Assembly: GCA_947589145.1 (NCBI GenBank)
Contig: CANQCB010000002.1
Coordinates: forward strand, 1-43,996
From: an uncultured Clostridia bacterium
GTDB taxonomy: Bacteria > Bacillota > Clostridia > Christensenellales > Pumilibacteraceae
Direction of reading: 5' to 3'
Length of the DNA stretch: 43,996 nucleotides
Numbering within the stretch: the first letter of the stretch is position 1; every line of letters begins with the position of its first letter. Of this stretch, positions 9,155 through 25,675 are shown piece by piece. Under the pieces are notes generated by a model that made no database searches, was not told the origin of the DNA, and saw only the letters and a program-made list of their open reading frames with translations. A program made the translations under genes and the position numbers.

Positions 9155-9161
9155 AAAACGC

Positions 9162-9190
9162 TTGCAATTATGCGGAAATACTGTTATAAT
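9162..9190 (+). promoter_or_regulatory. Sigma-A promoter for rimP-nusA operon
   Basis: TTGCAA - 17 bp - TATAAT. Confidence 0.8.
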
Positions 9191-9216
9191 ATGCTTGACT
9201 TTAATAGTAAGGCTAT

Positions 9217-9251
9217 GAGAGTGGACTGTTTCGTCCGCTCTCGAACTTTTT
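9217..9251 (+). promoter_or_regulatory. Leader hairpin with U-tract in rimP-nusA 5' UTR
   Basis: 10-bp stem GAGAGTGGAC / GTCCGCTCTC (one G-U), 6-nt loop, then GAACTTTTT. Confidence 0.6.
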
Positions 9252-9263
9252 ACGGAGGTATCT

Positions 9264-9716
9264 TTGGACGAGATATTCAATGCCGTCGATCCCAAAGTGC
9301 GCGAACTCGGATACGAGACCGTTGCGGTAGAACGGCGCACCGAGTACGGACAAAAAATAATAACGATCATAGTGGACAAAGTACCTCAGGGCGTATCTCT
9401 CGACGACTGCGAGAAGATACACTACGCGATCGAACCGATCGTGGACGAATTGGACCCGACGAACGGACAGCCGTACGTTCTTGAAATTTCATCTCCCGGA
9501 CTTGACAGACCTTTCAAAACACAGCGAGATTTCGAAAGAAACTACGGAAAGGAAGTGGAAGTTAAGTTATATGCCCCCGTTAAAGGCGTAAAAACTTACG
9601 AAGGGATTCTGCTCGAACGAACGGAAGGCTATGTCCTTATAGAAAATGATAACTCTCAAATAAAAATAGAAACAAACAGAATCGCGGTAGTAAGACCGCT
9701 TGTCAGATTCGAATAA
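9264..9716 (+). CDS. rimP: Ribosome maturation factor RimP
   Basis: VLEISSPGLDRPFKTQRDFERNYGKEVEVKLY; TTG start after GGAGG; precedes nusA. Confidence 0.94.
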   Translation: MDEIFNAVDPKVRELGYETVAVERRTEYGQKIITIIVDKVPQGVSLDDCEKIHYAIEPIVDELDPTNGQPYVLEISSPGLDRPFKTQRDFERNYGKEVEVKLYAPVKGVKTYEGILLERTEGYVLIENDNSQIKIETNRIAVVRPLVRFE

Positions 9717-20626: not shown

Positions 20627-21547
20627 ATGTTCGATTTATCGTCACTTAAACATGTCTTACCGACAAAAATTTACTCGTCGATATCGAATAATCTCGATCC
20701 GCAAAAATTGCGAGAGATAAGACTACGCGCGGAAAAACAGGTATGCGTTTCATACGGTCAAAAAAATATTGCATACTTGACCGCGAACGGAATAAGCGAT
20801 AGGGCGGACAAAGCGTTGACGGTTTCCGCGGACGATATAAAACGCGCGGTGGTGTCGTCGGCGGAACATTCGGTTTATGCGTACAACGACGATATTAACA
20901 AGGGATTTATAACGTTGGATAGCGGAGCGCGAATAGGCGTGTGCGGAGAGTGCGTTTTCGAGGACGGGAAAATAAAAGCGGTAAAGAATTATTCATCTGT
21001 AAATATACGTATTCCTCATGAAATTCGCGGTTGCGCAAGCGGTATTATGCCTGTCATAGTAGAAAATAATTGCCGCATAATGCTGATTTCCGCTCCCGGC
21101 GGCGGGAAAACCACTATGCTCAGAGATATAGCGAGACAGTTATCCGAACTCACGCCTCGCAATATTCTGATCGTAGACGAAAGGAGCGAAATTGCCTGTA
21201 CGGTCGGAGGCGTTCAGAAGCACGACGTCGGCATAAATACCGACGTAATTTCCGGTTCGGAAAAGGCGTATGCGTTCGAGTGCGCAATTCGTTCAATGCG
21301 ACCCGATGTTATAATCACGGACGAGATTTTCGGTAAAAGCGACATAGAGACGATAAGGGAAGCGGTCGGGTGCGGTATATCCGTGATCGCGTCGGCGCAT
21401 TCTTCGAATCCGGAAACTTTTATCATGCGTCCGTTTGTAAGGCAACTTGTCGAGGACAAACTCTTCGAAAGGTATATTTTTCTTTCGTCCGATTTTTTTT
21501 CGGACAGAGTAGAGGCAATGCTCGACAGGGATTTGAATTTGATATGA
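20627..21547 (+). CDS. spoIIIAA: Stage III sporulation protein AA (ATPase)
   Basis: Walker A ISAPGGGKTTMLRDIAR, IVDERSEIA; first of eight co-oriented spoIIIA genes. Confidence 0.95.
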   Translation: MFDLSSLKHVLPTKIYSSISNNLDPQKLREIRLRAEKQVCVSYGQKNIAYLTANGISDRADKALTVSADDIKRAVVSSAEHSVYAYNDDINKGFITLDSGARIGVCGECVFEDGKIKAVKNYSSVNIRIPHEIRGCASGIMPVIVENNCRIMLISAPGGGKTTMLRDIARQLSELTPRNILIVDERSEIACTVGGVQKHDVGINTDVISGSEKAYAFECAIRSMRPDVIITDEIFGKSDIETIREAVGCGISVIASAHSSNPETFIMRPFVRQLVEDKLFERYIFLSSDFFSDRVEAMLDRDLNLI

Positions 21548-22026
21548 TAGATAAGATGTTTCTTACGGTTTGCCTTACCGCCGTCGGAACGATAGTAGGG
21601 TTTGTAATAGGACACAGGCTTAAATTGCGCAAACAGTATTTCGATAGTTTGGACGGACTTCTTGCGCGCTTCGAGTCCACGTTGGCTTTTTCGCATGACA
21701 CCGTCCCGACCGTACTCGGACAGTATCGAACGGATTCGGGACTGCTTAACTCTCACATAAAGTTCTGCCTTCTGGAAATGAAGGGCGAGAAAGGGGATAA
21801 ATTTGCAAACGGTTATCTGTCGAAAAGCGAATCCGATTTTGTCCGTTCCGTAATAATGTCGCTCGGAACTTACAACACGGCGGCGGAGAAAAACGCGGTG
21901 GCGACAAATCGTATGAAATTAAAGGAATATTGCGCCGCCGCTGACGATAAATATGCAAAACTCGGCAAACCGAGCATAAAATTGGGCTTTCTTTTCGGAC
22001 TTCTGCTGTCCGTTCTGTGTTGGTAA
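21544..22026 (+). CDS. spoIIIAB: Stage III sporulation protein AB
   Basis: MIDKMFLTVCLTAVGTIVGFVIGHRLKLRKQ; position after spoIIIAA. Confidence 0.85.
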   Translation: MIDKMFLTVCLTAVGTIVGFVIGHRLKLRKQYFDSLDGLLARFESTLAFSHDTVPTVLGQYRTDSGLLNSHIKFCLLEMKGEKGDKFANGYLSKSESDFVRSVIMSLGTYNTAAEKNAVATNRMKLKEYCAAADDKYAKLGKPSIKLGFLFGLLLSVLCW

Positions 22027-22226
22027 TGAGTATAGATATAATATTCAAGATAGCCGCGATAGGGCTGATAACCGCAATAGTCGGTCAGGTATTGAAAAAA
22101 TACGACAAAGACGAGATAGCGTCGTTGGTAACGCTCGTCGGGCTTGTGACCGTTCTTTTGATAGTCATCGACTCTCTGACGGACTTGTTTTCCGCGCTTC
22201 AATCGGTTTTCGGGTTATATTCATGA
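22026..22226 (+). CDS. spoIIIAC: Stage III sporulation protein AC
   Basis: Small two-TM protein DIIFKIAAIGLITAIVGQVLKKYDKDEIASLVTLVGLV. Confidence 0.92.
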   Translation: MSIDIIFKIAAIGLITAIVGQVLKKYDKDEIASLVTLVGLVTVLLIVIDSLTDLFSALQSVFGLYS

Positions 22227-22612
22227 TATTGAAGATTGCAGCAATGGGCGTGATCACGGTAATATCGGTACTTACGGTACGAAGCGAGAGATCGGATATA
22301 GCCGTAACGATAGCGATAGTCGGCGGCATAGCGATTGTGCTGAGCGTAGTCGATTATTTTACGGCCATTGCGGAAATGCTAAACGATCTTGCGACGCGGA
22401 CGGGCGTAAACATGGATCTCGTGCAATATTTGCTTAAACTCGTCGGGGCAGGATATGTGATAGAATTTGCTTGCGATACTGCGGAGGACGCGAAGTTGCC
22501 CTCTCTTGCAAATAAAATTTCATTCGGCGGCAAGGTGGTACTGTTTTGCTTAATGATCCCTATCGTAAAAGAACTCATAGATATCGTAATATCATTATTG
22601 GAATACTGTTAA
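22223..22612 (+). CDS. spoIIIAD: Stage III sporulation protein AD
   Basis: ILKIAAMGVITVISVLTVRSERSDIAVTIAIVGG; position. Confidence 0.92.
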   Translation: MILKIAAMGVITVISVLTVRSERSDIAVTIAIVGGIAIVLSVVDYFTAIAEMLNDLATRTGVNMDLVQYLLKLVGAGYVIEFACDTAEDAKLPSLANKISFGGKVVLFCLMIPIVKELIDIVISLLEYC

Positions 22613-23745
22613 GTTTCGGTGCGATAATACTTTTTTCCACATTGGTAAGACCGCATGCGGACGGGGGAAGCGGCAGTTATACGGATGAAATAATTTCCTC
22701 GCTCGGCGGTGACTTTTCCAAACTTTTGTCCGGGCTAACCGAAACTCAGATAAATTTTTTCGGAGGGAACGACTATCTCGGCGTGCTGCGCGACATCGCA
22801 AGCGGTAAATTTACGTTGGATTTCTCCAACCTTTTCACGCTTATTTTCAGCGCGATAGGCGCGAGTATAACCGACCTGCTTACGCTCCTGATAGTCGTCG
22901 TTTCCATAGCGATAATATATTCCATACTCGGAGCGTTCAAAGGCAGAGCGTCGTCGGAAAGCGTGGGGAAAATGGTGCATTTTGCGTCGGTTTCCGCTAT
23001 GGTAGCGGTGCTTGGCGCGACTACGGTGGGGTTGTTCGGAGCGTGTGCGGAAACGCTGAACATAATTTCATCGCAAATTAACCTCATAATGCCGATCATG
23101 CTCACGCTGATGGCGGCGATAGGCGCGACGTCGTCCTCGGGAGTATTTCAGCCGGCAATCGCAGTTCTTACGAGCGGACTTACGACATTGCTCATCACGG
23201 TGCTTTTTCCCATGCTGATAGCCTCCTTCGTTTTCAACGTTATCGGCAACATATCCTCGGAAATGAGACTTTCCAAAGTATCCGAATTTTTGGGGAGCGC
23301 GGTGAAGTGGTTGTTCGGCACGGGATTTTTTATACTCACCGCATTTCTTTCCGTACAGGGAATAACCGCCTCCGTATTCGACGGGATATCTGTCAGGAGC
23401 GCGAAGTTCACGATAGGAAAGTTCGTTCCCGTCATCGGCGGTTATCTTGCGGAAGGCGTCAACCTGATAATATCCGGAGGGATAGCCGTAAAAAATGCGT
23501 TGGGATATACCGCGCTTGTCCTGCTTGCGGTTACCGTAATACCGATCATAATAAAAATCGCGGTTTATTCGTTATGTTTGCGGCTTGCGGCGGCAGTGGT
23601 TGAGCCGTTGGGAGATAAACTTATGAGCAATATGCTTTCTGGAATGGCGAAAACGGTGAGCCTTACCGGCGCAATAATGTCGGGCGCGGCGTTTTTATAT
23701 TTTATTTTTCTGCTTATCGTCGTATCCGCGGGGAACAGAATATGA
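22546..23745 (+). CDS. spoIIIAE: Stage III sporulation protein AE (exact start uncertain)
   Basis: Polytopic membrane protein, LLTLLIVVVSIAIIYSILGAFK ... GYLAEGVNLIISGGIAVKNALG; position. Confidence 0.9.
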   Translation: MLNDPYRKRTHRYRNIIIGILLSFGAIILFSTLVRPHADGGSGSYTDEIISSLGGDFSKLLSGLTETQINFFGGNDYLGVLRDIASGKFTLDFSNLFTLIFSAIGASITDLLTLLIVVVSIAIIYSILGAFKGRASSESVGKMVHFASVSAMVAVLGATTVGLFGACAETLNIISSQINLIMPIMLTLMAAIGATSSSGVFQPAIAVLTSGLTTLLITVLFPMLIASFVFNVIGNISSEMRLSKVSEFLGSAVKWLFGTGFFILTAFLSVQGITASVFDGISVRSAKFTIGKFVPVIGGYLAEGVNLIISGGIAVKNALGYTALVLLAVTVIPIIIKIAVYSLCLRLAAAVVEPLGDKLMSNMLSGMAKTVSLTGAIMSGAAFLYFIFLLIVVSAGNRI

Positions 23746-24224
23746 CGGCGTGGCTACTCTCTGTCGCGGGAACGGGCATACTCGGCGTGCTTATAGGGCA
23801 TTTGACGTCCAAAACGCGAATGCACGCCGTCATCAAAACCGCTTGCACATACGTCTTTTTGCTCGTGTTGATTTTTCCCATACCGACGCTCATTACGAAC
23901 GGGATCGATATGTCGTCTTGCAGTATATTCGGCGGCGACTTTTCATACAATGAGGATGTATTCGATAAAACGAGCGAAGCCTACTTTTCGGTCGTAAAAA
24001 CGGAGATAGAAAGGCAGGCGCAAGAACGCGGATATGAGATCGAGTGCGAGATAAACGGCACGCTTGACGAGGAAAAAATCACCGTGCATGAAGTGACTGT
24101 AATTCTGAAAGGCGAATTTGCCGACAGTTCCGCCGCGATATTGGACGTAAAAGCTATGATAGCTGACTATCTCGAAGTGGAAGAATCAATAGTGAGGGTT
24201 CAAGTTGAGCAAGTTAAAGGATAA
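23742..24224 (+). CDS. spoIIIAF: Stage III sporulation protein AF
   Basis: Position; N-terminal two-TM then soluble domain. Confidence 0.82.
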   Translation: MTAWLLSVAGTGILGVLIGHLTSKTRMHAVIKTACTYVFLLVLIFPIPTLITNGIDMSSCSIFGGDFSYNEDVFDKTSEAYFSVVKTEIERQAQERGYEIECEINGTLDEEKITVHEVTVILKGEFADSSAAILDVKAMIADYLEVEESIVRVQVEQVKG

Positions 24225-24630
24225 ATTCAAGAACATATTCGCAGAAATAAAATCGATCAAACACATAGAGATAATCATAGCCGTTATAGCGATCGTCATA
24301 ATGCTCGTTATTTATTTCGGTACGTCTTGTTCTCCCGATGAAAAAACAAGCATAGAGCCGCTGCCGGGTGAATATGATTATTATACGGAAACGGTCAGGG
24401 AACTCGAAACGAAACTCTCTCAGATAGAGGGAGTGGGAGACGTATCGGTGCTGGTAAATTGGTCGCAGGAAGCCGAGGAAACCTCAAACGGTTTGCCGAA
24501 GCCCGAAGGCGTGATCATCATCTGCGAGGGAGGAAACAATATTTCTGTAAAATTAAAACTAATTTCGTCGGTTGCGTCATATTTTGGGATCAGCGAAAAT
24601 AAAATCAATGTGTTAGCGAAAAGCAAATAA
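24205..24630 (+). CDS. spoIIIAG: Stage III sporulation protein AG (short form)
   Basis: Single TM then YTETVRELETKLSQIEGVGDVSVLVNW; position. Confidence 0.85.
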   Translation: MSKLKDKFKNIFAEIKSIKHIEIIIAVIAIVIMLVIYFGTSCSPDEKTSIEPLPGEYDYYTETVRELETKLSQIEGVGDVSVLVNWSQEAEETSNGLPKPEGVIIICEGGNNISVKLKLISSVASYFGISENKINVLAKSK

Positions 24631-24653
24631 AAAATATTTCGGGGGTAAACGCC

Positions 24654-25136
24654 ATGTTAAGTAAGAAAAAGAAGATCTTCATTTTGTCGGGTATGGTTGC
24701 ACTGCTTGTGCTTACGGGAGTGCTTAACATCGTACTGAATACGACGGCTTCCGCGCCGTCGGACAGCGTAAATGCCGGGTCGGAATATACCGATTTCTTT
24801 ACGGCGTACAAAGCGGACAGAAAGGCTTCCAGAGAGCAGGCTCTGCTCTATTACGACGAAATAATTTCGTCCGACAAATATTCGGAGGAAGTCAAACAGA
24901 ACGCTCAGAACGCAAAAGTCGCCCTTGCCGAGAGCATGGACACCGAACTCGTTCTCGAAGGGCTTATCAAGTCTTTGGGCTTCGAGGACGCAATAGTAAC
25001 GAGTACGACGGAGAATATCAACGTAATAGTCAAGTGTGACGAACTTACGGGTCCTCAGGCAAATCAGATCATGCAGATAGTCATAACGGAGACTGATAGA
25101 AAAGCGACGAACGTAAGAATTATTCCTACCGAATAA
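24654..25136 (+). CDS. spoIIIAH: Stage III sporulation protein AH
   Basis: TM then FFTAYKADRKASREQALLYYDEIISSDKYSEEVKQNAQ; last gene of spoIIIA operon. Confidence 0.9.
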   Translation: MLSKKKKIFILSGMVALLVLTGVLNIVLNTTASAPSDSVNAGSEYTDFFTAYKADRKASREQALLYYDEIISSDKYSEEVKQNAQNAKVALAESMDTELVLEGLIKSLGFEDAIVTSTTENINVIVKCDELTGPQANQIMQIVITETDRKATNVRIIPTE

Positions 25137-25147
25137 TAAAAAAAAGA

Positions 25148-25176
25148 TTGAAATATAAGAGCCGCTGTGCTATACT
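25148..25176 (+). promoter_or_regulatory. Sigma-A promoter for the nusB operon
   Basis: TTGAAA - 17 bp - TATACT. Confidence 0.75.
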
Positions 25177-25184
25177 TACATAAG

Positions 25185-25250
25185 TAGTGGTGCGCGCTCC
25201 GCAAAATTGCCCTAAAAATCCGCGCACCGCTAACGCGGATTTTTATATTT
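25185..25250 (+). promoter_or_regulatory. Candidate transcription attenuator in the nusB leader
   Basis: 12-bp pairing 25185-25196 / 25221-25232 versus 11-bp terminator stem 25214-25224 / 25234-25244 ending in TTTTT. Confidence 0.65.
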
Positions 25251-25261
25251 ACGGAGAAATT

Positions 25262-25675
25262 ATGGGAAGAAAATCGGCAAGGGAAGCGTTATTCGGTTTG
25301 GTCTATGAATATACGGTGAGAAACGAAGAGGACGAATTTACGCTGTCGATAATGACAAAAGATTTGTCTGCCGACGATATCGAATATGTGGAATCGTCGT
25401 ATCGCGGCATTATTTCCAATCGTGAAAAAATCTGCGAGTTGATACAAAAATACAGTCGCGGCTTTGCGCTCGACCGAATATACAAAATAGATTTAGCAAT
25501 ACTTATGGTTGCGGTATACGAAATTCTTTACCGTGACGACGTCCCTTATTCGGTAAGTGCGAACGAGGCGACGGAACTTGCGAAAAAATACTCGACCGAC
25601 AAGAGTTATTCCTATGTGAACGGAGTGCTTGCGTCTGTAATAAAGGAGGTCGGCAATGTCGGCACGTTTGATTGA
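25262..25675 (+). CDS. nusB: Transcription antitermination factor NusB
   Basis: MGRKSAREALFGLVYEYTV, LAILMVAVYEILYRDDVPYSVSANEATELAKKYSTDKSYSYVNGVLASV; precedes folD. Confidence 0.94.
   Translation: MGRKSAREALFGLVYEYTVRNEEDEFTLSIMTKDLSADDIEYVESSYRGIISNREKICELIQKYSRGFALDRIYKIDLAILMVAVYEILYRDDVPYSVSANEATELAKKYSTDKSYSYVNGVLASVIKEVGNVGTFD

Follow-up and report, generated by a model that had tools for sequence, protein, structure and literature searches.

The DNA analysed here, referred to below as the window, is a stretch of 43,996 nt from an uncultured member of the Clostridia (family Pumilibacteraceae; contig CANQCB010000002.1), and the genome behind it comprises 1.32 Mb in 129 contigs. Within the window, the sporulation operon spoIIIAA-AH is followed on the same strand by a run of housekeeping genes headed by nusB (nusB-folD-xseA-xseB-polyprenyl synthase-dxs, as identified by Pfam). 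Between them lies a predicted nusB promoter, the -35 box of which begins 11 nt past the stop codon of spoIIIAH, and a leader of 80 nt separates this promoter from nusB (Table 1). The leader carries a hairpin resembling an intrinsic terminator, and begins with an arm, region 1, that could pair with either of two partners, namely the RNA of the promoter region (region 0), or the 5' arm and loop of the terminator (region 2).

Table 1. Features of the spoIIIA-nusB junction, in window coordinates.
Feature	Position	Strand	Description
spoIIIAA-AH sporulation operon	20627-25136	+	SpoIIIAA at 20627
spoIIIAH	24654-25136	+	Pfam SpoIIIAH, E=9e-28; last gene of spoIIIAA-AH
nusB promoter	25148-25176	+	TTGAAA-17-TATACT with extended -10 TG; predicted start near 25182-25184
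-35 box	25148-25153		TTGAAA
-10 box	25171-25176		TATACT; spacer of 17 nt
Region 0 (promoter-region RNA, putative anti-antiterminator)	25159-25177	+	Pairs with 25182-25199; only in transcripts started upstream
Region 1 (switching arm, predicted 5' end of nusB transcript)	25182-25199	+	Core 25185-25196; partner is 25221-25232 or region 0
Antiterminator 3' strand (region 2)	25221-25232	+	Last four bases of terminator 5' arm and most of loop
Intrinsic-terminator-like hairpin	25213-25245	+	UAAAAAUCCGCG-loop-CGCGGAUUUUUA; U-tract within 3' arm and beyond
Shine-Dalgarno of nusB	25252-25256	+	CGGAG, from sequence; outside the competing helices
nusB	25262-25675	+	ATG at 25262; Pfam NusB, E=1.8e-29

The original prediction for this site described a promoter followed by a leader with two competing helices. 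The promoter boxes lie exactly where they had been placed, and an extended TG is additionally seen at the -10 box. The antiterminator helix of 12 bp (25185-25196 with 25221-25232, including one G-U) is present as claimed, as is the 11-bp terminator helix (25214-25224 with 25234-25244), which an extra A-U pair (25213:25245) lengthens. Bases 25221-25224 are common to the two, making them mutually exclusive. Taken alone, the leader of the window stands out only slightly (fold z=-1.55, with 15 of 200 shuffles folding equally well), and the hairpin before nusB is absent from the plus-strand list that a simple terminator scan gave for the window. The pairing of the 5' arm beats 99.75% of its own dinucleotide shuffles. 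When 713 kb of the window genome was scanned for a promoter and terminator with a complementary 5' arm, nothing comparable was found elsewhere, and among the 29 candidates the antiterminator of the nusB leader was the strongest by a wide margin (-23.4 kcal/mol, the next being -14.4). When this context is counted, the arrangement of the leader exceeds chance.

Fourteen genomes of the genus (the Candidatus Protoclostridium group) were searched, and nusB was found in 13. All 13 loci have a promoter with a 17-nt spacer, a 5' arm, and a terminator-like hairpin ahead of the first codon; the U-tracts are poor in two species (L006 and L014). Identity across species is 90-94% at the -35 and -10 boxes, compared with 47% in the spacer and about 45-47% in the arms, indicating that it is the pairing and not the sequence of the arms that has been kept. 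A covariance model built on the leader gave one strong match in each nusB-bearing genome of the genus, always at nusB. Weaker matches were inspected in the genus and the wider order, and none was a leader of the nusB type. A repeated element or regulon was rejected, since these weaker matches were ordinary terminators of the AAATCCGC..GCGGATTT type or sequences resembling promoters. Terminators of the AAATCCGCG..CGCGGATTT type are common among the matches in the order. In 11 of the 13 species only 9-11 nt separate the spoIIIAH stop codon from the -35 box, which leaves no space for another terminator between them. In L011 and L012, about 100-130 additional bases lie between the spoIIIAH stop codon and the nusB promoter, and these end in what appears to be a decayed second copy of the 3' end of spoIIIAH.

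Covariation in the spoIIIAH-nusB spacer had been suggested as a check of the original prediction, and compensatory changes between the 5' arm and the terminator arm and loop were indeed found. Pairing of regions 1 and 2 reached -14.98 kcal/mol within a species against -11.84 kcal/mol between mismatched species (13 species; permutation p=5e-5), and its sum over the 13 species exceeded that of shuffles (0 of 2000 as good). The signal persists with one representative per clade (median p 8e-4), and in a subset of five species with a common register none of the seven pairs is lost, four of them having changed on both sides. The antiterminator departs from this pattern in L008 and L012, and in L012 it shows no excess over shuffles. 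Behind a promoter and ahead of the first codon, a conserved helix that competes with the terminator for shared bases is the layout of an attenuator, and comparison of the sequences strongly supports a predicted leader of mutually exclusive antiterminator and terminator.

While sequence comparison shows the parts and how they are conserved, pair and covary, the winning fold at each RNA length comes from computed equilibrium folding. RNA folded as far as the end of the terminator loop adopts the antiterminator in nearly all species, and likewise, in nearly all, an RNA with the nusB start is computed to form the antiterminator before the 3' arm of the terminator exists. For the full-length leader, the minimum is usually the terminator, and the equilibrium of the RNA with its own start favours the terminator in most species. 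Since the finished leader thus tends to the terminator, escape of transcripts begun at the nusB promoter has to rely on kinetics and may be incomplete. The finished own-start leader of the window is near balance (-22.4 vs -21.3 kcal/mol). Hairpins nucleate next to their loop, and it is this portion of the terminator that the antiterminator occupies, by which it would block nucleation.

As a description of the leader, a switch of two helices was correct for both of these but missed a third, formed between promoter RNA and the 5' arm. RNA from -36 to +28 folds as a long hairpin in every species, with the promoter region (about -27 to -2) paired to the 5' arm; in the window this helix has 17 pairs and spans the predicted start site. 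Pairing of regions 0 and 1 is -18.0 kcal/mol in cis compared to -14.4 kcal/mol in trans (z=-4.65, p=5e-5), the hypothesis having been formed on the same 13 species as were used for its test. With nine clade representatives the probability is about 1e-4, and this helix covaries at least as strongly as the antiterminator. Four control segment pairs, together with six windows in the nusB coding sequence, showed no significant excess of cis pairing. Among the 204 predicted pairs between regions 0 and 1, 35 are G-U. RNAalifold found no consensus for this helix in an alignment of the sequence from promoter to arm, because the register of the helix drifts, and for the same reason the pairing of matched and mismatched species was compared instead. 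That upstream RNA both pairs and covaries with the switching arm is what would be expected of a terminator that discriminates between transcripts by origin.

In computed folds, attaching a species' own 36 upstream nt lowers antiterminator occupancy to 0.37 of its own-start value, compared with 0.63 when the upstream sequence of another species is used (p=5.5e-4) and 0.73 with shuffles (0 of 100). When the 3' arm was made to emerge base by base, the terminator overtook the antiterminator earlier with upstream RNA attached in all 13 species, by a mean of 4.9 nt (2.2 +/- 0.45 for shuffles). In the window species, region 0 removes just 2% of the antiterminator at the earliest stage and brings the takeover 4 nt sooner (8 rather than 12 emerged bases), a smaller discrimination that reflects the exceptional strength of its antiterminator. 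Early effects of region 0 are likewise weak in L010 and L014.

Together, the promoter and the 80-nt leader may constitute a terminator that senses where a transcript began, a reading that we consider to stand at an even chance. A transcript from the nusB promoter would lack region 0. Its region 1 would capture region 2 before the 3' arm of the terminator has been made, the terminator would be kept from nucleating, and RNA polymerase would enter nusB. A transcript arriving from the spoIIIA operon, on the other hand, would include region 0; regions 0 and 1 would then fold first, region 2 would be left free, and the terminator would form. Such a device would terminate the spoIIIA message and protect the housekeeping operon nusB-folD-xseAB from sporulation transcription, and would do so although the sole terminator sits downstream of the nusB promoter. 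Sensing of origin is the simplest model in which all three helices are needed, and it agrees both with the lack of space for another terminator before the -35 box and with promoter boxes far better conserved than the spacer and arms; the start site, termination itself and the insulating role are what we infer from the sequences. Somewhat more tentatively, at a little under half, the transcribed promoter may be seen as an anti-antiterminator, and a single stretch of about 90 bp as a one-way insulator between a sporulation and a housekeeping operon. If so, a promoter would be usable despite a terminator downstream of it, since its own transcribed sequence would set the switch, and closely packed operons with opposite expression programmes could be insulated compactly. 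Similar devices could be sought elsewhere as a promoter RNA, a leader arm and a terminator arm that are mutually complementary. The case would also illustrate how what looks like an attenuator upstream of a regulator's gene may wrongly be taken for feedback control.

The most serious competitor, although unlikely, is ordinary attenuation of the nusB operon, with some effector (a protein, pausing dependent on NusA or NusG, or the speed of RNA polymerase) selecting the antiterminator or the terminator on transcripts from the nusB promoter. The conserved, mutually exclusive antiterminator and terminator helices are what it would require, and the finished own-start leader, which is near balance in several species or favours the terminator, would be open to such control. 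There are also precedents among Nus factors, as autoregulation of NusA through a leader attenuator is established in B. subtilis (PMC12288461) and has been proposed in S. agalactiae (PMC4448216), while the rimP-nusA leader in the same window has a terminator directly after its predicted start. Ordinary attenuation does not, however, predict that a promoter region untranscribed from the nusB start should covary with the 5' arm, and neither a ligand-sensing domain nor a start codon nor a boxA is conserved in the leader, which matches no Rfam family at cut-off.

Because NusB is an antitermination factor, autoregulation by attenuation had been regarded as plausible in the original prediction. Such a scheme, in which NusB (with S10) would regulate its own operon through the leader, can appeal to the identity of the gene, and to the widespread autoregulation of Nus factors in gammaproteobacteria, which includes a putative boxA before ribH-nusB of Pseudomonas (PMC5725501). 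Three references were used in the search for boxA, those of E. coli and of the B. subtilis-like type and a boxA-like sequence of the genus inferred from the 16S leaders of two genomes, and across the 13 nusB leaders the best matches were at the level of shuffles, apart from a single isolated match in L013. The leader lacks a conserved boxA-like site and has no other feature that indicates NusB; moreover, the known cases combine boxA with translation repression and Rho, and are not switches of an intrinsic terminator (PMC5725501). Autoregulation via boxA was rejected because no match other than the one in L013 rose above shuffles, feedback by NusB now seems improbable, and the helix between promoter-region RNA and the 5' arm is the reason for preferring discrimination by origin.

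Comparably improbable is a main start site further upstream, which would turn regions 0, 1, 2 and 3 into a classical attenuator with a signal-sensing 5' hairpin. Four regions with overlapping pairings do make up the textbook layout. Against this, the promoter hexamers and their 17-nt spacing are present in all 13 species and are conserved far better than the arms, and with the -35 box only 9-11 nt from the spoIIIAH stop codon in 11 of the 13, an earlier start would have to lie in or beside spoIIIAH. Least probable of all is that a transcription factor binds the inverted repeat at the start site as a DNA operator, the RNA pairing being a by-product. The dyad does extend over the -10 box and the start, a usual place for a repressor. 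Between species, however, its arms share only about 45-47% identity and yet still pair, 35 of the 204 predicted pairs are G-U, and an operator would not account for the additional match of the 5' arm to the terminator. A riboswitch or other known RNA family was rejected, as Rfam gave no match at the gathering score in the window, and on the short stretch only a sub-threshold Leu_leader (22.9 bits against a cut-off of 50). A leader peptide was likewise rejected, as by eye the 13 leaders share no common frame and several have no usable start codon past the start.

Other genera of the family that were examined do not have such a leader; in these, either a reading frame separates spoIIIAH from nusB or the spacing is tight. 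In several of them a hairpin resembling an intrinsic terminator lies directly before the nusB ribosome-binding site, with no obvious promoter (the loci are from L022-L027, L032-L034, L037, L062 and L070). One genome of the genus has a second nusB copy (L015; G012:C74) with the gene order of other genera and no leader, which is probably contamination of that assembly. The conserved 16S leader of the genus holds the boxA-like sequence GGCTTTTTGAAGC. Among the 16S loci of three genomes of the genus (L153, L154 and L155), two have a terminator-like hairpin within about 150 nt past the 16S gene, and the partial 16S gene of the third looks alike, with a terminator-like hairpin after it. This suggests that 16S and 23S are unlinked in the genus.

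In classical attenuators, and in the expression platforms of T-boxes and riboswitches, a terminator and an antiterminator share bases and exclude each other. The nusB leader resembles them in the bases shared by its own terminator and antiterminator, but has no ligand or leader-peptide module, its apparent input being whether upstream RNA is attached or not. The insertion sequence IS10 is protected from outside transcripts. In IS200, a stem-loop terminates impinging transcripts (cited in PMC3196728), and there too outside transcripts are treated differently from the element's own, but it is the transposase that is protected, and the portion of the source drawn on here describes no antiterminator that would free the element's own transcript. 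The greA leader GraL (PMC6829880) is similar in belonging to an elongation-factor gene and in being short and ending in an intrinsic terminator; an origin-dependent third helix is not described in the parts of that account consulted. Autoregulation of Nus factors through boxA (suhB, rpsJ and ribH-nusB; Baniulyte 2017, PMC5725501) also concerns expression of Nus-factor genes, but proceeds by translation repression followed by Rho termination, and boxA is absent from the nusB leader. A search of the open full-text literature, a scope outside which most subscription papers fall, found no description of a nusB leader.

Closest in setting is the rimP-nusA attenuator (PMC2965389; PMC12288461; PMC4448216), which likewise places an intrinsic terminator near the start in the leader of a Nus-factor operon. 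The rimP leader has been described as a short terminator motif with no larger conserved elements (Naville and Gautheret 2010, PMC2965389), whereas the nusB leader also has an antiterminator that covaries, and its third arm lies within the promoter. The window also contains the leader of a rimP-nusA-infB operon (9160-9264), with a predicted promoter TTGCAA-17-TATAAT and a strong terminator-like hairpin (about 9214-9245) that lies about 17 nt past the predicted start and before rimP (TTG at 9264). It resembles the known rimP leader, at which NusA autoregulation takes place. Two Nus-factor operons within the window have leader terminators, and the designs of these differ.
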